Shown: positions 14,772 to 23,058 of the stretch, piece by piece
Position numbering within the stretch: the first letter of the stretch is position 1
How the letters are laid out: every line of letters starts with the position of its first letter
Assembly (NCBI RefSeq): GCF_004216895.1
Contig: NZ_SGXE01000003.1
Coordinates: forward strand, 62,001-126,000
Length of the DNA: 64,000 nt
From: Aquimarina brevivitae
GTDB taxonomy: Bacteria > Bacteroidota > Bacteroidia > Flavobacteriales > Flavobacteriaceae
Direction of reading: 5' to 3'
Notes under the pieces: generated by a model
The model's input: the letters and a program-made list of their open reading frames with translations, nothing else
Told to the model about the DNA's origin: nothing
Databases searched by the model: none
Program-made: the position numbers and the translations under genes

Positions 14772-16037
14772 TTAGATCAAAAATTGAAATAAATCCGGTT
14801 TGTCATTTAGGTAGTCTCCAAAAAAATTGTAGGCCTTCATTCTTTCAATAAGCGGTTTAAGGTCCTTTTGATCCTTAAGCTCGATGCCGACCACGGCCGG
14901 TCCATTTTCTCTACTGGATTTTTTGGAGTACTCAAAATGGGTGATATCATCATCAGGACCCAATACTTGACCCACGAATTGTTTTAGAGCACCGGCACGT
15001 TGTGGAAATCGCACAATAAAGTAATGTTTGAGATCAGCGTAAAGGAGAGCTCTTTCTTTGATTTCTGCAGTTCGGGTAATATCATTATTACTCCCACTTA
15101 CAATGCATACTACATTTTTGCCTTTGATTTGTTCTTTATAGAATTCTAGGGCTGCTAATGTTAATGCACCTGCGGGTTCAACAACAATAGCATCTCTATT
15201 GTAAAGGTCCAAAATCGTTTGACAAACCCAACCCTCGGGAATTGTAAATACATCTGTCAAATGATTTTTACATATTTCAAAATTAAGATCGCCAACTTTT
15301 TGAACTGCCGCGCCGTCGATAAACTTATCGATGTTAAAGATTTCTGTGTTTTTATTATTTTGAATAGAAGTTAACATCGAAGGTGCACCTTCTGGCTCCA
15401 CTCCAATAATTTTAGTGTTAGGTGAAAGTGCTTTGAGTGCTCCGCACAACCCAGAGGCTAATCCTCCACCACCAATGGCTACAAACACATAATCTATAGG
15501 CACATCGACTTGTTTAAAAATTTCGAGGCCAATGGTCCCCTGGCCTTCTATGGTTTTGGGATCGTCAAAGGGGTGTACAAATGTTTTATGCTCGGCAGCA
15601 CATACTTTCATTGCAGCCTTGTAGGAGTCATCAAAGGTATCCCCTTGTAAGATAATGTCAACAAAGTCGCCACCAAACATCTTGGTCTGATCAACTTTTT
15701 GCCTAGGAGTCACCGAAGGCATATAAATGGTTCCTTTGATCTTTAATTGGCTACACGCAAATGCTACTCCCTGAGCGTGATTACCGGCACTGGCGCAAAC
15801 CACCCCATTCTTAAGTTGTTCCGGAGATAAGGACGCTATTTTGTTATAAGCTCCTCTTATTTTGTATGAGCGGACACGTTGTAGATCCTCTCGCTTCAGT
15901 AAAACATTTGCCTCATATTTTTTAGAATACCGAATACTTTCCATCAATGGCGTTACCATCGCTACTTTTTTTATCGTAGTAGCTGCGTTTTGTATGGCTT
16001 CTAAGGAAGGGAAATATGTGGTGACCGTCGTACTCAT
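14772..16037 (-). CDS. ilvA: Threonine dehydratase (biosynthetic)
   Basis: PLP enzyme that deaminates threonine to 2-oxobutanoate, the committed step to isoleucine. 421 residues. The PLP lysine is Lys59 in SYKIRGAYNK, and the phosphate-binding Gly loop GGGGLASG lies around residue 193. A C-terminal regulatory segment (about 330-421) resembles a single ACT-like domain, shorter than the two-domain E. coli form and usual in this phylum, so feedback by isoleucine is plausible. Last gene of the ilv operon, separated from ilvC by 163 nt holding a large inverted repeat. Confidence 0.93.
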   Translation of the reverse strand: MSTTVTTYFPSLEAIQNAATTIKKVAMVTPLMESIRYSKKYEANVLLKREDLQRVRSYKIRGAYNKIASLSPEQLKNGVVCASAGNHAQGVAFACSQLKIKGTIYMPSVTPRQKVDQTKMFGGDFVDIILQGDTFDDSYKAAMKVCAAEHKTFVHPFDDPKTIEGQGTIGLEIFKQVDVPIDYVFVAIGGGGLASGLCGALKALSPNTKIIGVEPEGAPSMLTSIQNNKNTEIFNIDKFIDGAAVQKVGDLNFEICKNHLTDVFTIPEGWVCQTILDLYNRDAIVVEPAGALTLAALEFYKEQIKGKNVVCIVSGSNNDITRTAEIKERALLYADLKHYFIVRFPQRAGALKQFVGQVLGPDDDITHFEYSKKSSRENGPAVVGIELKDQKDLKPLIERMKAYNFFGDYLNDKPDLFQFLI

Positions 16038-16069
16038 AAATTCATTCTAATTCTGTGTATTGCATTTGT

Positions 16070-16124
16070 AGGAACGCTGCTTTTGTGGGTTGCTTGTCTG
16101 TTGGCTCCCCACAAAAGCGTTCCT
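16070..16124. repeat. Long intergenic inverted repeat between ilvC and ilvA
   Basis: The right arm CCCACAAAAGCGTTCCT (16108-16124) is the exact reverse complement of the left arm (16070-16089) except for a 3-nt bulge (TGC) in the left arm. The loop is 18 nt. No T tract follows on either strand, so it is not a standard terminator. It could be an intergenic palindromic repeat family member, an mRNA-stabilising hairpin inside the ilvC-ilvA transcript, or a processing site. Confidence 0.85.
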
Positions 16125-16200
16125 AAAACAGGTTAACTCATCAAAATCCACACAATACACATTCAAAAAATTTCGATGACCTGCTATACATTCATTAACT

Positions 16201-17736
16201 TTAAGAAACTGCCTGTGCTACTATTGGTTTCATCGCTTTCATAGAAGCTCTTAATTTGGCACCAACCTTTTCAACCGGATGATTTCGTAACTGTGAATTC
16301 ACCGTGATTAATTCTTCGTTTGATACCGATTGGTTGGTTACAGAATGAAAAGCTTTTCCAATTACATCAACATCTACTTTTTTCATAAAATCACTCAATA
16401 AAGGCTTACAGGCGTGATCAAATAAGTAGCATCCATACTCTGCGGTATCTGATATAACTCTATTCATTTCATATAACTTTTTGCGTGCAATGGTATTCGC
16501 AATTAATGGAGTTTCGTGTAAAGACTCGTAGTACGCCGACTCTTCAATAATTCCGGATTCCGTCATAGACTCAAAAGCAAGCTCTACACCCGCTCTCACC
16601 ATAGCAATCATTAGCACTCCCTTATCATAAAATTCTTGTTCTGTAATATTTTCTTTACTTGGAGGTGTTTTTTCAAATGCCGTTTCTGCAGTTGCAGCTC
16701 TCCATTTAAGAAGATTTTCATCGTCTGCCGCCCAATCTTCCATCATGGTTTTAGAAAAATGACCTGTCATGATATCGTCCATATGTTTTCTAAATAGTGG
16801 TCGCATGATGTCTTTTAATTCTTCAGAAAGATAATATGCCTTTATCTTTGAAACGTTAGGAAGGCGATCCATCATATTGGTGATCCCTCCATATTTCATA
16901 CCTTCAGTAATGGTTTCCCACCCAAATTGAATAAGTTTGGAGGCATAAGCTGGATCAATACCCTTTTTGACCATTTTATCAAAACACAAAATCGAACCTG
17001 TTTGCAGCAAACCACAAAGTATGGTTTGTTCTCCCATAAGGTCTGACTTTACTTCAGCTACAAAAGAAGACTCCAGTACCCCGGCACGATCACCACCTGT
17101 TGCTACCGCATATGCTTTGGCTTGTTCAAAACCAATGCCTTGCGGATCATTCTCTGGATGGACAGCGATCAACGTAGGGACTCCGAACCCGCGCTTATAC
17201 TCCTCTCGCACCTCTGAACCAGGACATTTTGGCGCCACCATAATCACGGTTAAATCTTTGCGAATTTGCATGCCTTCTTCCACAATATTAAAACCATGCG
17301 AATAGGACAGTGTCGCTCCTTTTTTCATTAACGGCATAACCGTTTCCACAACCTGAGTATGCTGTTTATCTGGTGTTAAATTAATCACCACATCTGCTGT
17401 AGGAATCAACTCTTCATAGGTACCTACTGTAAAATTATTATCAGTTGCGTTTTTAAAGGATTGTCGTTGTTCTTTTATAGCAGCCGCTCGTAAAGCATAA
17501 CCTATTTGTAAGCCAGAGTCTCTCATATTTAATCCTTGGTTTAATCCCTGGGCTCCACATCCTACTATTACAATTTTTTTCCCTTTGAGAGCGCTTACGC
17601 CTTCCGAGAACTCTGAAGCCTCCATAAATCGACATTTACCCAATTGGGTCAACTTTTCACGCAAGGATAAGGTGTTAAAATAGTTCGTTCGTTTTTGGTT
17701 TTCAGTTTTTTTTGCCGTTGGTGCTGTAGTTATCAT
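16201..17736 (-). CDS. ilvC: Ketol-acid reductoisomerase, class II
   Basis: NADPH- and Mg-dependent isomerisation/reduction of acetolactate or acetohydroxybutyrate, second common step to valine and isoleucine. 511 residues with the duplicated C-terminal knotted domain, i.e. the long class II form like that of E. coli. NADPH loop [17 protein letters not shown] (59-75). Compared with the E. coli enzyme it has a short polar N-terminal extension of about 17 residues before [12 protein letters not shown]; a later start is possible but no good alternative Met lies there. High confidence in function. Confidence 0.95.
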
Positions 17737-17794
17737 TGCATTTATTTTTTTTAAATATTGTACACTTTTATTTTTTACACTTCTTTATACTTCT

Positions 17795-18328
17795 TTATAC
17801 TGTTTGCGAAGCGAATTTTTCTAAGATGGAAGATATATGCATCTTATCTTTTGTTACTGCAATTCTTCCTGATCGGGTAAACTGCATTAGCCCGTAAGGT
17901 TCTAATTTAGAATATAGGGCATCGACCTCTCTTCGTCTTCCGGTTTTTTCAATGACAAAAAACTCTGGAGTAACTGTAACAATATTGGCATTGCTGTTTT
18001 TTATGACATTTTGTATCTGTCGTTCTTCAAAAAGTAATTTAGAAGCTACTTTGAATAAGGCTGTTTCCTGATAGATAATCTCCTCTTCTTTATGATAAAA
18101 AGCCTTAATTACTTCAATCTGTTTTTCAATTTGACCGACAATCTTTTTGACCTGTTCCTCGGTTACTTTAATGGCTATGGTAAACCGAAAAACATCTTTA
18201 ATTTCAGATTGAGAAGCGGTCATACTGTCTAAATTAATATGCCGTTTTAAAAAAATAGCGGATATTCGATTCAGTAATCCAATATTGTTTTCTGTATATA
18301 CTGATATGGTGAAATTTTCTTTGTCCAT
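17795..18328 (-). CDS. ilvN: Acetolactate synthase small (regulatory) subunit
   Basis: A 177-residue regulatory subunit that activates the catalytic subunit and confers valine feedback inhibition. The N-terminal ACT domain (about 5-80) begins FTISVYTENNIGLLNRIS, with the effector-site Asn/Gly; the C-terminal part (about 85-165) has the family's second domain. Lies 26 nt downstream of ilvB in the operon, as expected for partners of a complex. The name ilvH would be equally valid. Confidence 0.93.
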   Translation of the reverse strand: MDKENFTISVYTENNIGLLNRISAIFLKRHINLDSMTASQSEIKDVFRFTIAIKVTEEQVKKIVGQIEKQIEVIKAFYHKEEEIIYQETALFKVASKLLFEERQIQNVIKNSNANIVTVTPEFFVIEKTGRRREVDALYSKLEPYGLMQFTRSGRIAVTKDKMHISSILEKFASQTV

Positions 18329-18354
18329 TATAATTGGTATATCATTCTTTAATA

Positions 18355-20088
18355 TTATTCTAGTCGGATATCGGATACGGAGCTGCCTGTCGGTATCATC
18401 GGAAAAACATTATTTTCTTTCTCTACACAAACTTCCAGGAAATAAGGTCCTTGATGTTGTATCATTTCTTGTATTGCCTCTTGCAAATTGTTTCGCGCAG
18501 TTACCTTTTGTGCTTTGATATGATATCCTTCTGCAATTTTTACAAAATCAGGATTGATCATTTCTGTAGAAGCATAGCGCTTATCAAAAAATAATTGTTG
18601 CCATTGGCGAACCATTCCTAGAAAATCATTGTTTAGTACCACTATTTTTACAGGTACTTGAGTTTGAAAAATCGTACCCAACTCTTGTATAGTCATTTGG
18701 TAACCGCCGTCACCTATAATAGCCACGACCTCTCTATCTGGTGCGCCCATTTTTGCTCCGATAGCGGCTGGTAAAGCAAAGCCCATTGTACCTAATCCAC
18801 CGGAGGTTACGTTGCTCCTGGATTTTTTAAACTCAGCATAACGACACGCTATCATTTGATGTTGTCCCACATCCGACACGATGATGGCATCACCAGCAGT
18901 TTCTTGATTGATTCCCTTTAGTACTTCGCCCATCGTTAACCCATCTTTTTCAGGATATAGTTCTTCTTTGATTACCTTATCAAATTCGATTTTATCGTGG
19001 GCTCTAAATTCTTCAGTCCAAGACTGGTGTTCATTGGGTTTGACTAATGGTAAAATCTCTTTCAGCGTATGCTTAACATTACCCATCACCGCAATATCCA
19101 CAGGAACATTTTTATTTACTTCAGAAGGATCAATTTCAAAATGAATAATTTTTGCTTGTTTGGCATAGGTATCCAGCTTTCCGGTAACCCGATCATCAAA
19201 TCGCATTCCGATGGCTAACAGCACATCACATTCATTTGTCAATTTATTGGGTCCATAGTTTCCGTGCATCCCCACCATACCAACATTAAGTGGATGCGAT
19301 GTTGGCAATGCCGATAATCCTAAAATAGTCCAGGCCGCAGGAATACCCGTTTTTTCTACAAAATCTTTAAGTTCCTCTTCGGCTTCCCCTAGAATAACGC
19401 CTTGACCAAATACGATCATTGGTTTTTTAGCTTCATTGATGATTGCAGCTGCATTTTGTAAACTATCTGGAGTCGTTTCAGGAATAGGAATATAACTTCG
19501 TATCCCTTTGCACTTTTCATACACAAAATCAAATTCGCCAAATTGCGCATCTTTGGTAATATCCACCAATACCGGTCCTGGACGACCTGATCTGGCAATG
19601 TAAAAGGCCTTTGCGATAACCTCTGGAATTTTTTCAGCTTTAGTAACCTGACAATTCCACTTGGTTACCGGAGTAGAAATACCGATAATATCAGTTTCTT
19701 GAAATGCATCCGAACCTAGTAAGTGTGAACCTACCTGACCCGTTATACACACCATGGGTGTAGAATCGATCTGCGCATCGGCAATACCCGTAACAAAATT
19801 AGTTGCTCCCGGTCCGGATGTAGCTATAGCCACCCCGACTTTACCACTAGCTCTGGCATATCCCTGTGCAGCGTGAGTCGCTCCTTGTTCGTGACGAGTT
19901 AATACGTGATGAATTTTATCCTGAAACTTATACAACTCATCATACACCGGCATAATCGCACCACCAGGATATCCATAAATCAAATCGACCCCTTCTGCTA
20001 GCAAACAACGAATTACTGCCTCTGCACCTGTAATACGTTCTGTTGTTACTTTTTCCTTTTGTCGTATGGTTTGCGTGTGTGTTTCCAT
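18355..20088 (-). CDS. ilvB: Acetolactate synthase large (catalytic) subunit
   Basis: ThDP-dependent enzyme condensing two pyruvates, or pyruvate with 2-oxobutanoate. 577 residues. The catalytic Glu67 is in HEQGATHAAQGYARASG, the FAD-binding middle domain is present, and the ThDP-Mg motif starts GDGGYQM and ends at VVLNND. Forms a complex with the downstream ilvN product. The 80-nt gap to ilvD contains no terminator. High confidence. Confidence 0.96.
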   Translation of the reverse strand: METHTQTIRQKEKVTTERITGAEAVIRCLLAEGVDLIYGYPGGAIMPVYDELYKFQDKIHHVLTRHEQGATHAAQGYARASGKVGVAIATSGPGATNFVTGIADAQIDSTPMVCITGQVGSHLLGSDAFQETDIIGISTPVTKWNCQVTKAEKIPEVIAKAFYIARSGRPGPVLVDITKDAQFGEFDFVYEKCKGIRSYIPIPETTPDSLQNAAAIINEAKKPMIVFGQGVILGEAEEELKDFVEKTGIPAAWTILGLSALPTSHPLNVGMVGMHGNYGPNKLTNECDVLLAIGMRFDDRVTGKLDTYAKQAKIIHFEIDPSEVNKNVPVDIAVMGNVKHTLKEILPLVKPNEHQSWTEEFRAHDKIEFDKVIKEELYPEKDGLTMGEVLKGINQETAGDAIIVSDVGQHQMIACRYAEFKKSRSNVTSGGLGTMGFALPAAIGAKMGAPDREVVAIIGDGGYQMTIQELGTIFQTQVPVKIVVLNNDFLGMVRQWQQLFFDKRYASTEMINPDFVKIAEGYHIKAQKVTARNNLQEAIQEMIQHQGPYFLEVCVEKENNVFPMIPTGSSVSDIRLE

Positions 20089-20168: not shown

Positions 20169-21845
20169 TTAAAATTCATCAGTTACACAACCTCTTGATG
20201 CTGATGATACTGTATGAGCATATTTGTACAATACACCTCTATTAAATTTTAAAGGAGGTTGTTTCCACTTTTCTTTTCTTTTTTGCAGTTCCTGATCACT
20301 TACATCAACTGTTATGGTATTTGTTTCCGCATCAATGGTGATCTGATCACCATCTTGTATCAATGCTATGGTTCCTCCTTCTTGCGCCTCGGGTGTGATA
20401 TGTCCTACTACAAATCCGTGTGTACCTCCGGAGAATCTACCATCGGTAATTAAAGCAACATCTTTACCTAAACCTGCACCCATAATAGCGGCTGTCGGTT
20501 TTAACATCTCTGGCATTCCAGGTCCTCCTTTAGGCCCTTCGTAGCGAATTACTACCACATCACCTTTAGCTACTAATCCTTTGCTGATCCCTTCATTGGC
20601 TTTATACTCCCCTTCAAATACTTTGGCAGTACCCGTAAAACGCAATCCTTCTTTACCAGTAATCTTAGCAACACAACCTTCTGCTGCCAGATTGCCAAAT
20701 AAGATTCGTAAATGACCCGAAGGTTTTATTGGATTTTCTAAGGGTTTGATTACTTCTTGTCCTTCGGTTAAATCAGGTACGTCGAGCAGATTCTCTGCTA
20801 AAGTTTTACCGGTAACGGTTAAACAGTCTCCGTGAAGCAACCCTTTTTTAAGCAAGTATTTGAGCACTGCGGGTATTCCACCTATATTATGCACATCCTC
20901 CATCAAATATTTACCACTTGGTTTTAAGTCTGCCAAAAATGGTGTTTCATCACTGATTCGCTGAAAATCCGCCAATGTAAATTCTACATCTGCGGCTCTG
21001 GCAATGGCTAAAAAATGAAGTACTGCATTTGTGGAGCCCCCAAGAATGGTTATCAATCGAATTGCATTTTCTAAGGACTTCTTGGTTACAATATCTTTGG
21101 GTTTAATATCTTTTTCTAACAACAACCGCATAGCACTACCAGCAGCAATACTCTCTGCTTCTTTTTCATTGCTTATCGCGGGATTTGATGAATTGTAAGG
21201 TAGCGACATACCTAAAGCTTCAATAGCAGAAGCCATGGTATTGGCGGTATACATTCCTCCGCAGGCGCCAGCACCTGGACACGCCTTTTCTATTACATTT
21301 TTATATTCATTTTGGGTAATCGTTCCGGCTACTTTTTCTCCCCAGGCTTCAAATGCTGAAACCACATCTAATTTTTTTCCTTCGTGGCATCCTGAAGCAA
21401 TAGTACCTCCGTAAACTAAAATAGAAGGTCTGTTCAATCGTAGCATAGCCATCAGCGCACCTGGCATATTTTTATCGCAACCTACCACGGTTACCATTCC
21501 GTCATAAGACATGGCTTGCACTACGGTTTCCATGGAGTCTGCAATTACATCTCTAGACGGAAGCGAGTATCGCATACCCGGTGTCCCCATGGATATACCA
21601 TCACTCACCCCGATAGTATTAAAAATGAGTCCTACCACATCTTCATTTTCAGTTCCTTTTTTAACCAATTTTGCCAGATCATTAAGATGCATATTGCAAG
21701 GGTTACCTTCGTAGCCTGTACTTGCAATACCTACAAATGGCTTTTTAAAATCTTCGTCGGTAAGCCCTATGGCGTGTAACATGGCTTGTGCAGCCGGTTG
21801 TGTTTCGTCTTGCGTTATTTGTTTACTAAACTTATTTAATTCCAT
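20169..21845 (-). CDS. ilvD: Dihydroxy-acid dehydratase, probably [2Fe-2S] type
   Basis: Dehydrates dihydroxy-isovalerate and -methylvalerate to the 2-oxo acids. 558 residues, the short form of the IlvD/Edd family. Three cysteines are in place to bind the cluster: Cys50 in GNPCN, Cys123 in GCDKNMPG and Cys195 in [14 protein letters not shown]. The Cys50 motif is typical of the oxygen-tolerant [2Fe-2S] group rather than the E. coli [4Fe-4S] form. First structural gene of the ilv operon, directly controlled by the attenuation leader upstream. Confidence 0.95.
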
Positions 21846-22071
21846 TTTTTGTACACTATGTGTTTTATCATTGATTTATGTTACATAAGCCTCAATTGAC
21901 TTACTATACTTTAAATCATAGTTTAAAATTATTCTCTTCTATATAGTTTATGCTTAATTATTAAGTTGACTTACAATATCCAGCTCACCACACTCTGTCA
22001 TTAACACCTGAAAACCAAATCTTTACACTTATTAATTTTACAACATTTAATAATCAGAAAAGGCTCTAATA
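21846..22071 (-). other. Leader segment between second ilv attenuator and ilvD
   Basis: About 225 nt with no supported gene. It contains a direct repeat, GTAAGTCAA, on the minus strand near 21966 and 21906, and a 15-codon ORF at 21954-22001 with no branched-chain bias that I do not call. A second promoter could lie here but no convincing motif was found. Confidence 0.5.
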
Positions 22072-22107
22072 ACAAAGCTCCCACTTTAGAAAAAGAGGGA
22101 GCTTTGT
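22072..22107 (-). terminator. ilv attenuator 2: terminator hairpin
   Basis: ACAAAGCTCCC pairs perfectly with GGGAGCTTTGT (11 bp, 14-nt loop). If only the GCTCCC/GGGAGC part is counted as stem, it is followed on the minus strand by TTTGTTATT, an imperfect U tract. The 5' arm can instead pair with the stop-codon region of leader peptide 2, so the hairpin is conditional. Confidence 0.7.
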
Positions 22108-22131
22108 ATACTAGTAGTCAATAAGCAACCC

Positions 22132-22203
22132 TCACGGTGAATTTATCACCACGATAATAATACTAATGACAATGCTACTTAGCTGCTTTCTGTTTTGCTT
22201 CAT
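22132..22203 (-). CDS. ilv leader peptide 2
   Basis: A 23-codon ORF that begins four nucleotides past the T tract of the first attenuator terminator. Residues 11-20 read IVISIIIVVI: nine of ten are Ile or Val, ending N-S-P-stop. Its early part (R-K-Q-L-S-S) resembles that of leader 1 (R-K-Q-L-N-S), suggesting that the two units arose by duplication. Expected to sense charged tRNA-Ile and tRNA-Val by ribosome stalling; it has only one Leu codon. Confidence 0.85.
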   Translation of the reverse strand: MKQNRKQLSSIVISIIIVVINSP

Positions 22204-22206
22204 ACG

Positions 22207-22243
22207 AAATAAAAAATCCCTTTACTGAATTAGTAAAGGGATT
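22207..22243 (-). terminator. ilv attenuator 1: terminator hairpin
   Basis: On the minus strand AATCCCTTTACT pairs perfectly with AGTAAAGGGATT (12 bp, 5-nt loop), followed by TTTTTTATTT. This is a textbook intrinsic terminator. It lies 31 nt after the stop codon of leader peptide 1, inside the transcribed leader. Confidence 0.92.
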
Positions 22244-22274
22244 GAATTGTAATATTAATGAGTACTAATGCCCT

Positions 22275-22340
22275 TTACCACTGTGAATGAATCACAATAA
22301 TTCGAATGACATTATTACTATTTAATTGTTTTCTTCTCAT
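22275..22340 (-). CDS. ilv leader peptide 1
   Basis: A 21-codon ORF upstream of the first attenuator terminator. Residues 11-18 read VIRIIVIH, with six Ile/Val codons in seven positions, and it ends Q-W-stop. The stop codon overlaps the antiterminator segment TAAAGGG. Too short for standard gene finders; supported by codon composition, position and RNA pairing rather than by length. Confidence 0.88.
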   Translation of the reverse strand: MRRKQLNSNNVIRIIVIHSQW

Positions 22341-22401
22341 TTATAGTAACGAATTACGGAATAAAAAATAAAAGAACCAATATTTTGAGCACTATTTTGT
22401 A

Positions 22402-23058
22402 TTACTCGACTTTAAATAAGTTATGCTTCATACAATAGATAACCATTCCCACTCTGGTTTTAACCTGTAATTTTTTAAAAACGGTTTCTCTATAGTTTTC
22501 TACGGTTTTAGGACTCAAATGCATTTCATCTGCTATACTTTTATACGTAAGTTCAGAACAGGCATGTTTCAAAAACTCCCACTCACGATCCGTTAATTTT
22601 TCTTCGAGCTTTATGGTATTATCTTCTATTTTTTGATCCGAATGTTTGAGAGCGCTTTCGATTTTACTGGAATAATAAAAGCCTTGTTCGATCACCATTT
22701 TCATAGCAAACTCAAAATTATCAGGATGAATATCCTTTAATAGATATCCTCGGGCTCCTGCACGCAACATTTTAATGATTGTTTCTTCATCATCTTCCAT
22801 GGTCAGCGCCAATACTTTTTGCTCTGGCTGATGTTCCTTTAACCATTGCATCGTTTGTATTCCATCCATTACCGGCATTTTTACATCAAGCAACACTACG
22901 TCAGGTTTTTTTCTCTTATGGAGATAGTATCGAGTAAGTTCTTTACCATTTTTGAGTATTTCTAATACTTCATACCCATCTAATTTTGATATTAAACTCT
23001 CTAATGATTGTGCAAATAGCAGGTGATCGTCAACTATAACTACCGTTTTATTTTTCAT
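22402..23058 (-). CDS. NarL/LuxR-type response regulator
   Basis: A 218-residue two-domain regulator. The receiver domain (about 1-125) has the acidic pair Asp10-Asp11, phospho-acceptor Asp58 in VVLLDVKMP and the conserved Lys near residue 108. The C-terminal LuxR helix-turn-helix (about 150-212) reads LTDREWEFLKHAC... YKSIADEMHLSPKTVENY. It should be phosphorylated by the histidine kinase encoded 5 nt upstream and then bind DNA. Targets are unknown. It is the last gene of a four-gene operon, and the ilv leader begins about 60 nt beyond it. Confidence 0.92.
   Translation of the reverse strand: MKNKTVVIVDDHLLFAQSLESLISKLDGYEVLEILKNGKELTRYYLHKRKKPDVVLLDVKMPVMDGIQTMQWLKEHQPEQKVLALTMEDDEETIIKMLRAGARGYLLKDIHPDNFEFAMKMVIEQGFYYSSKIESALKHSDQKIEDNTIKLEEKLTDREWEFLKHACSELTYKSIADEMHLSPKTVENYRETVFKKLQVKTRVGMVIYCMKHNLFKVE

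Follow-up and report, generated by a model that had tools for sequence, protein, structure and literature searches.

Two putative Ile/Val leader-peptide attenuators arranged in series upstream of the ilvDBNCA operon of Aquimarina brevivitae

Can a single biosynthetic operon be guarded by two transcription attenuators that respond to the same amino acids? The question is raised by the leader region of an isoleucine-valine operon in Aquimarina brevivitae, which we studied in a window of 64,000 nucleotides (the whole stretch of DNA analyzed; assembly GCF_004216895.1, contig NZ_SGXE01000003.1). An initial annotation had described two ilv attenuators in series here; both are complete in the window, and we judge the serial reading to be the best account of the locus. 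Hence, on the strength of comparative sequence analysis, we propose that ilvDBNCA is very probably controlled by a leader RNA carrying two successive ribosome-mediated transcription attenuators. The observations behind this reading are the parts of the two units, their conservation, their pairing alternatives, and, in most relatives, a promoter box ahead of unit 1. The features are as follows, from upstream to downstream:

22402-23058: response-regulator gene, the upstream neighbor; the leader region starts 61 bases after it
22350..22380, minus strand: putative promoter of the whole leader, with TTG at 22380-22378, 21 nt, and TAATTCG at 22356-22350, a degenerate match to TAnnTTTG
22340-22068, minus strand: two-unit leader region upstream of ilvD-ilvB-ilvN-ilvC-ilvA
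22275..22340, minus strand: leader peptide 1, MRRKQLNSNNVIRIIVIHSQW, 21 codons with 4 Ile and 2 Val; counterpart leader in 27 of 33 loci of the genus
22283..22295, minus strand: core of the P1 hairpin of unit 1, GTGA TTCAT TCAC, with paired changes in relatives and seen in folds
22271..22279, minus strand: antiterminator segment of unit 1, GGTAAAGGG, spanning the stop codon and pairing with the 5' arm of the terminator at -12.5 kcal/mol
22205..22243, minus strand: intrinsic terminator 1 with U tract, a 12-bp stem (22243-22215) followed by U6-A-U3
22132..22203, minus strand: leader peptide 2, MKQNRKQLSSIVISIIIVVINSP, 23 codons with 6 Ile and 3 Val; counterpart leader likewise in 27 of 33 loci
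22136..22150, minus strand: core of the P1 hairpin of unit 2, GGTGA TAAAT TCACC, from sequence and folds, with weaker support from relatives than that of unit 1
22123..22133, minus strand: antiterminator segment of unit 2, GAGGG TT GCTT, overlapping the stop codon TGA (-8.2 kcal/mol)
22068..22107, minus strand: intrinsic terminator 2; its U tract, UUUGUUAUU, is weaker than those of most relatives
20169..21845, minus strand: ilvD, dihydroxy-acid dehydratase, first gene of the operon (NCBIfam TIGR00110, 757.6 bits)
20088-18355, minus strand: ilvB (NCBIfam TIGR00118)
18328-17795, minus strand: ilvN (NCBIfam TIGR00119)
17736-16201, minus strand: ilvC (NCBIfam NF003557)
16037-14772, minus strand: ilvA (NCBIfam NF006390)

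The five genes, of which ilvB to ilvA span 14772..20088, belong to the isoleucine-valine pathway. The units upstream of them stand head to tail; in each, a short ORF rich in Ile/Val codons has an antiterminator segment at its stop codon and is followed by an intrinsic terminator. The letters, counts and coordinates of the initial annotation proved correct throughout, including a 23-codon ORF with IVISIIIVVI (nine of ten residues Ile or Val) in unit 2 and the overlap of its stop codon, TGA, with GAGGG; the one correction is that the ATG of leader 2 lies three bases, not four, past the last T of the preceding tract.

Terminator 2 ends 222 bases before the ilvD start (21845). This interval contains a further conserved stretch (window 22050-21880, minus strand), which in Aquimarina reads TAGTGATTGTAAAT..TAA..TGTAAATCA..TGGATrTTGTAAG..ATTGAATAA. 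A pattern built from its two ends matched in 20 of 30 genomes of the genus, always upstream of ilvD and over 75 or 76 nt except for one nested shorter match; the backward control pattern gave one match. By eye, diverged copies are found in the own genome and at loci L024 and L028, the latter two without attenuators. A search for a consensus RNA structure in the stretch found none. We rejected a third unit between terminator 2 and ilvD: small Ile/Val ORFs occur there in some genomes, but in other genomes the reading frame is interrupted (by eye), and a consensus structure is lacking.

As a ribosome-mediated transcription attenuator, unit 1 combines an ORF with codons for the regulated amino acids, a computationally predicted intrinsic terminator before the first structural gene (stem z-score -3.9 against shuffles), and an alternative antiterminator that, as computed for two of three stall positions, would be freed by a stalled ribosome and blocked by one at the stop codon. 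Its P1 hairpin lies within the final Val/Ile codons and the ones that follow. By computation, unit 2 likewise has a short ORF, an intrinsic terminator (an 11-bp stem at 22107-22072 with an inner 4-bp extension; z-score -5.7 against shuffles) and an alternative antiterminator, with a weak U tract and a pairing that is not specific to its own arm; the tract is an unbroken run of U in most relatives, as judged by eye. At the gathering thresholds of Rfam the window had no match, T-box and riboswitch families included; the sub-threshold matches include Thr_leader (RF00506) over unit 2 (22071-22187, minus strand; 28.6 bits, E 0.0025, below the gathering cut-off of 55).

We then asked of the window RNA which folds a ribosome would leave available, assuming a footprint of 14 nt on either side. 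Before the 3' arm of the terminator is made, unit 1 folds into the antiterminator with a ribosome at the first or the middle Ile/Val codons; at the last Ile codon another fold wins even at this stage and no antiterminator forms. In unit 2 the antiterminator forms at all three stall positions, shortened at the last; the pairing of the terminator arm with the GAGGG segment, anticipated by the initial annotation, here involves AAGC.CCCTC of the terminator. With the ribosome at the stop codon, the constrained folds of neither unit contain an antiterminator. Thus, the folds switch as the model demands at five of the six stall positions tested. Once completed, the leaders adopt the terminator fold in all states, and without a ribosome both also end in the terminator; antitermination must therefore win kinetically. 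Such a kinetic choice between folds is known from established attenuators.

The relatives allow the same alternatives to be followed across the genus. For the 27 loci with two units, we paired the 22 nt around the stop codon with the 5' arm of their own terminator and compared the result with shuffled segments. The means were -10.2 kcal/mol for unit 1 and -10.3 kcal/mol for unit 2, against -3.9 and -4.4 for the shuffled segments; the poorest cases were unit 1 of L029 (-3.2) and unit 2 of L014 (-4.1, where the stem delimited by the script ended early). Unguided, RNAalifold recovered two helices in unit 1, namely the terminator and P1 (consensus GAGGTGA-TTATT-TCACCTT). In the hairpins of this unit, 95% of the cells pair and eight pairs carry changes on both sides; their covariation score was reached by none of 500 shuffles and no slid register came close, although the tool warns that related sequences can beat shuffles without structure. 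In unit 2, 87% of the cells pair, RNAalifold returned the terminator and no P1, and a register slid by one matches the proposed one in double changes (nine pairs against eight). The covariation in relatives that the initial annotation had named as a check is hence seen for the unit 1 hairpins and the unit 2 terminator, and less so for P1 of unit 2. Given the unspecific arm pairing, the equal showing of the slid register and the missing RNAalifold P1, unit 2 is the less well supported of the two. The P1 hairpins may act as pause hairpins that let the ribosome catch up.

How widespread is the arrangement? The IlvD of A. brevivitae is 85-91% identical to those of 26 matches named Aquimarina. In a search of its own and 32 other genomes of the genus, two units precede ilvD at 27 of 33 loci, one unit at a single locus and none at five. 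These counts combine 30 loci (the own genome included; 27 with two units, three with none) with three more scanned by another version of the detector (one single, two with none); the second version alone yields 25 of 33, since it drops both units of L014 and one of L020. Among the 26 loci named Aquimarina, which overlap the genus set, 21 have two units, four have one and one has none. The loci without units and the one with a single unit indicate that the arrangement is dispensable. Over the 27 tandem loci the mean make-up of the leaders is similar (6.0 Ile and 2.3 Val in unit 1; 7.4 Ile and 3.0 Val in unit 2), and the hairpin signatures mostly differ within the genus, with the kind TCCCTTTAC/GTAAAGGGA in unit 1 and the kind TCCCTTCA/TGAAGGGA in unit 2.

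For other biosynthetic genes in a few relatives we looked for any short ORF followed by a terminator, an unfiltered procedure that also yields chance ORFs. Upstream of hisG, a single His leader (HHHH; e.g., MNTFFVHHHHSYSNAQAR) with a terminator was found in seven of seven genomes of the genus (L251-L257, the own genome being L255). Leader-peptide attenuation is thus likely to be common in the genus; with one His unit per hisG locus, the doubling is not general. No such leader was seen by eye at the 17 aspartokinase and 11 leuA-like genes scanned, a few of which are from other families.

Beyond the genus, IlvD was found in 233 of 299 genomes of the family, 231 of them of other genera, and upstream regions were taken for 133 of these 231, from the better-scoring matches listed. 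These regions, like the 33 of Aquimarina, were scanned with a detector slightly different from that used on the window: two units were found in 12, one in 46 and none in 75. The number of tandems is best read as about 12 of 133, since by eye the second match of L116 is spurious and L209, which shows both units, has been added; named examples are Tenacibaculum agarivorans and Bizionia arctica. These tandems are made of two unlike kinds of hairpin: kind A (GCCTTCC/GGAAGGC or like) is upstream in each of the 12, and kind B (GCCTGTATC/GATACAGGC or like) forms the downstream unit. Single and double loci of the other genera together have 35 leaders of type A, 29 of type B and six others. In type B units (e.g., L140, L146 and L163) a small hairpin, AACTCA..TGAGTT and variants, brackets the stop codon directly before the antiterminator segment, with apparent paired changes (by eye).

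The initial annotation had ascribed the two units to duplication, which the data favor as an old event and disfavor as a recent copy. Within a genome, peptides 1 and 2 score no higher against each other (31.2) than between genomes (30.8; window 31.5); a recent duplication in this genome is therefore not favored. Their nucleotide cores are alike in Aquimarina (unit 1 against unit 2, 16.0), as against 1.9 for A versus B in the 12 tandem loci of other genera and -4.5 for shuffled sequences. Both are closest to type A (unit 1 scores 9.4 and unit 2 scores 10.2 against A; 2.4 and 4.4 against B) and can thus be called A-like, consistent with a duplication that predates the genus and with A-B tandems of separate history. 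We do not favor unit 2 as the type B unit of other genera: although the positions agree, its core is nearer to A (10.2 versus 4.4); by peptide score alone the types are not told apart (27.8 for A, 25.8 for B). The R-K-Q-L-x-S that the initial annotation saw in both peptides is indeed present in both. R-K-Q-L is absent from the other 26 Aquimarina pairs, and we had considered it a private, meaningless likeness; this idea was dropped as a like motif, [KR]KQ[LIVF], occurs in eight of 35 type A and none of 29 type B leaders of other genera, which weakly favors descent of both units from type A. The duplicated kind of unit may have possessed the motif ancestrally. An old duplication of a type A unit would fit as the source of the Aquimarina pair; convergence or conversion is a possible origin of the likeness of its units.

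Do the two units share a transcript? In flavobacteria the -7 box of sigma-A promoters is TAnnTTTG, located at -12 to -5, according to the part of PMC9723704 drawn on here. The relaxed form TAnnTTT[GA] is found in the 25 nt ahead of ATG 1 in 24 of the 27 tandem loci, before ATG 2 in four and before ilvD in none, with a background of about 0.05 per window; for the two-box version, with TTG 18-24 nt upstream of the -7 box, the respective numbers are 14, one and zero. The gap from terminator 1 to ATG 2 is 11 to 101 nt (up to 20 in 13 of 27, and 11 here). At single-B loci of other genera, box-like sequence directly precedes B in eight of nine printed cases (by eye); the promoter seems to precede whichever unit comes first. 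The contrast between 24 and four of 27 favors one transcript for both units. In A. brevivitae itself the box is degenerate: it reads TAATTCG where the relatives have TATATTT[GA] at the same place (by eye); the own genome fails to match, which makes its promoter the weakest link in the argument. Among the relatives, about 8 nt often separate the end of the -7 box from ATG 1 (by eye), which predicts a 5' leader of about 4 nt; leader 1 may thus be nearly leaderless there (the corresponding positions in the window are 22356-22340).

Three other explanations have to be weighed against this serial reading. That the units are a matter of chance, i.e., two ordinary terminators past the upstream regulator gene preceded by accidental Ile/Val ORFs, gains some color from the AT-rich genome, in which Ile codons are common, and from the reverse-complement control on the 33 Aquimarina regions, which was not clean (one match in 12, two in two), perhaps because palindromic terminators may also read as terminators backwards. 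Nevertheless, shuffling left none of 33; for the 133 regions of other genera the reverse complement gave two, one or no units in zero, seven and 126 cases, and mononucleotide shuffles in zero, two and 131. On the window itself, searched on both strands over 64 kb for a terminator preceded by a short ORF rich in Ile/Val or Ile/Leu/Val, the detector returned two matches, and both are the units at this locus. The conservation of both units in relatives is strong counter-evidence: both persist in 27 of 33 loci though the 85 nt before unit 1 vary among many, which renders chance negligible as an explanation. A start site of its own for unit 2, which would make the units alternative rather than serial, was one of the refutations that the initial annotation had named. 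A box there is absent from most loci; the matches before ATG 2 in four of 27, including L003 with its gap of 101 nt (by eye), the box-like sequences before B at the single-B loci and the poor box before unit 1 of the window speak for such a start. Yet about 1.3 of 27 matches are expected from background, the full two-box promoter stands there in only one of 27 loci, and a mere 11 nt separate terminator 1 from ATG 2 here; we therefore regard separate promoters as very improbable.

Somewhat more weight, while still being unlikely, attaches to the idea that only one unit regulates in this genome, the other being a remnant in decay that is bypassed or gives weak termination. In its favor, this genome has a degenerate -7 box and a degenerate U tract 2, single units are found at 46 of 133 loci of other genera, and within the genus one locus is single and five have none. 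Against such decay, neither unit has lost its stem, its stop-codon segment or its Ile/Val run; moreover, terminator 2 differs from those of the relatives and yet retains the pairing of arm and stop-codon segment, with an added GCTT/AAGC stretch (by eye). We thus return to two working attenuators in series as the preferred reading, and advance the following plausible mechanism. RNA polymerase would start just upstream of leader 1, in this genome presumably making one transcript, and a ribosome would translate the leader behind it. When charged tRNA-Ile and tRNA-Val are plentiful, a ribosome at the stop codon of leader 1 would cover the antiterminator segment, allowing terminator 1 to form and transcription to end. 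Upon stalling on the Ile/Val codons, the stop-codon segment would pair with the 5' arm of the terminator before the 3' arm is made, and transcription would continue. A second ribosome would then repeat the same test on leader 2, so that transcription would reach the operon only after passing both tests, with a lower leak and a steeper response as the expected gain.

The two decisions need not be independent, given strong cross-pairing between the units. Segment 1 pairs with arm 2 at a mean of -8.3 kcal/mol, its own arm being better in 23 of 27 loci; segment 2 pairs with arm 1 at -10.2, close to its own-arm mean of -10.3, and its own arm is better in 18 of 27. Further, the 3' arm of terminator 1, free when gate 1 is open, carries AAAGGG, a potential partner for the 5' arm of terminator 2. 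With such pairings available, simple multiplication of the two decisions is an assumption. More speculatively, and as a conjecture that we would sooner doubt than endorse, same-signal serial attenuation might be a recurrent, selected design of the Flavobacteriaceae, reached at least twice (by an A-A' duplication in Aquimarina and as A-B elsewhere), with coupled gates, in which the freed 3' arm of gate 1 (GTAAAGGG) attacks terminator 2 and so aids passage through gate 2.

If the serial reading is true, one operon would be guarded by two textbook attenuation switches for the same amino acids, an arrangement that most of a genus retains and that has parallels in other genera. Natural sequences would then let one ask what a second gate buys, be it lower leak, a steeper response or a different weighting of Ile and Val, and why the number of gates varies among relatives from none to two.

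How does this compare with known systems? The leader-peptide attenuators of ilv, leu, thr and his operons, of the E. coli ilvGMEDA type, are known with one attenuator per operon. What they share with the present units is a short ORF enriched for the amino acids under regulation, a decision between antiterminator and terminator, and a place upstream of a biosynthetic operon; the difference is that here two complete units succeed one another, and each comprises a terminator, a small hairpin and, at its stop codon, an antiterminator segment. A survey of attenuators by Vitreschak and colleagues from 2004 reportedly touches on Bacteroidetes and may mention ilv leaders there. Repetition of the same control element in one leader is familiar from tandem riboswitches, T-boxes and PyrR attenuators. 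In those the sensor is the binding of RNA, tRNA or protein, as against a translating ribosome here. Tandem glnA and pan RNAs are described in PMC2864571, in the part of that paper used here, with the glnA tandems linked to more digital regulation.

Closer to Aquimarina, the portions consulted of the literature report structured 5' regions with clues of leader-peptide attenuation before amino-acid operons in Flavobacterium psychrophilum (PMC9723704, the main text of which does not contain the term ilv), as well as long 5' UTRs that contain short ORFs in Bacteroides thetaiotaomicron (PMC7366714), and a table there names Bacteroid-trp (RF01692). These come from the same family or phylum and the same kind of mechanism is proposed for them; those portions describe no tandem. 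The present results would thus add comparative support to leader-peptide attenuation in a phylum where the cited papers, in these portions, offer predictions only. The initial annotation knew of no described tandem ilv attenuator of this kind, in agreement with the literature matches listed (open-licence papers), among which there is none. The described tandem attenuator that we did find in print, going by the part of PMC3641672 drawn on here, is that of Salmonella mgtCBR, whose leader also contains two short ORFs with separate sets of alternative structures. There, mgtM and mgtP sense different signals (ATP and proline) and the hairpins are unlike intrinsic terminators; the A. brevivitae leader falls outside the mgtCBR type, in that both of its peptides are rich in Ile and Val and both of its units possess intrinsic terminators.
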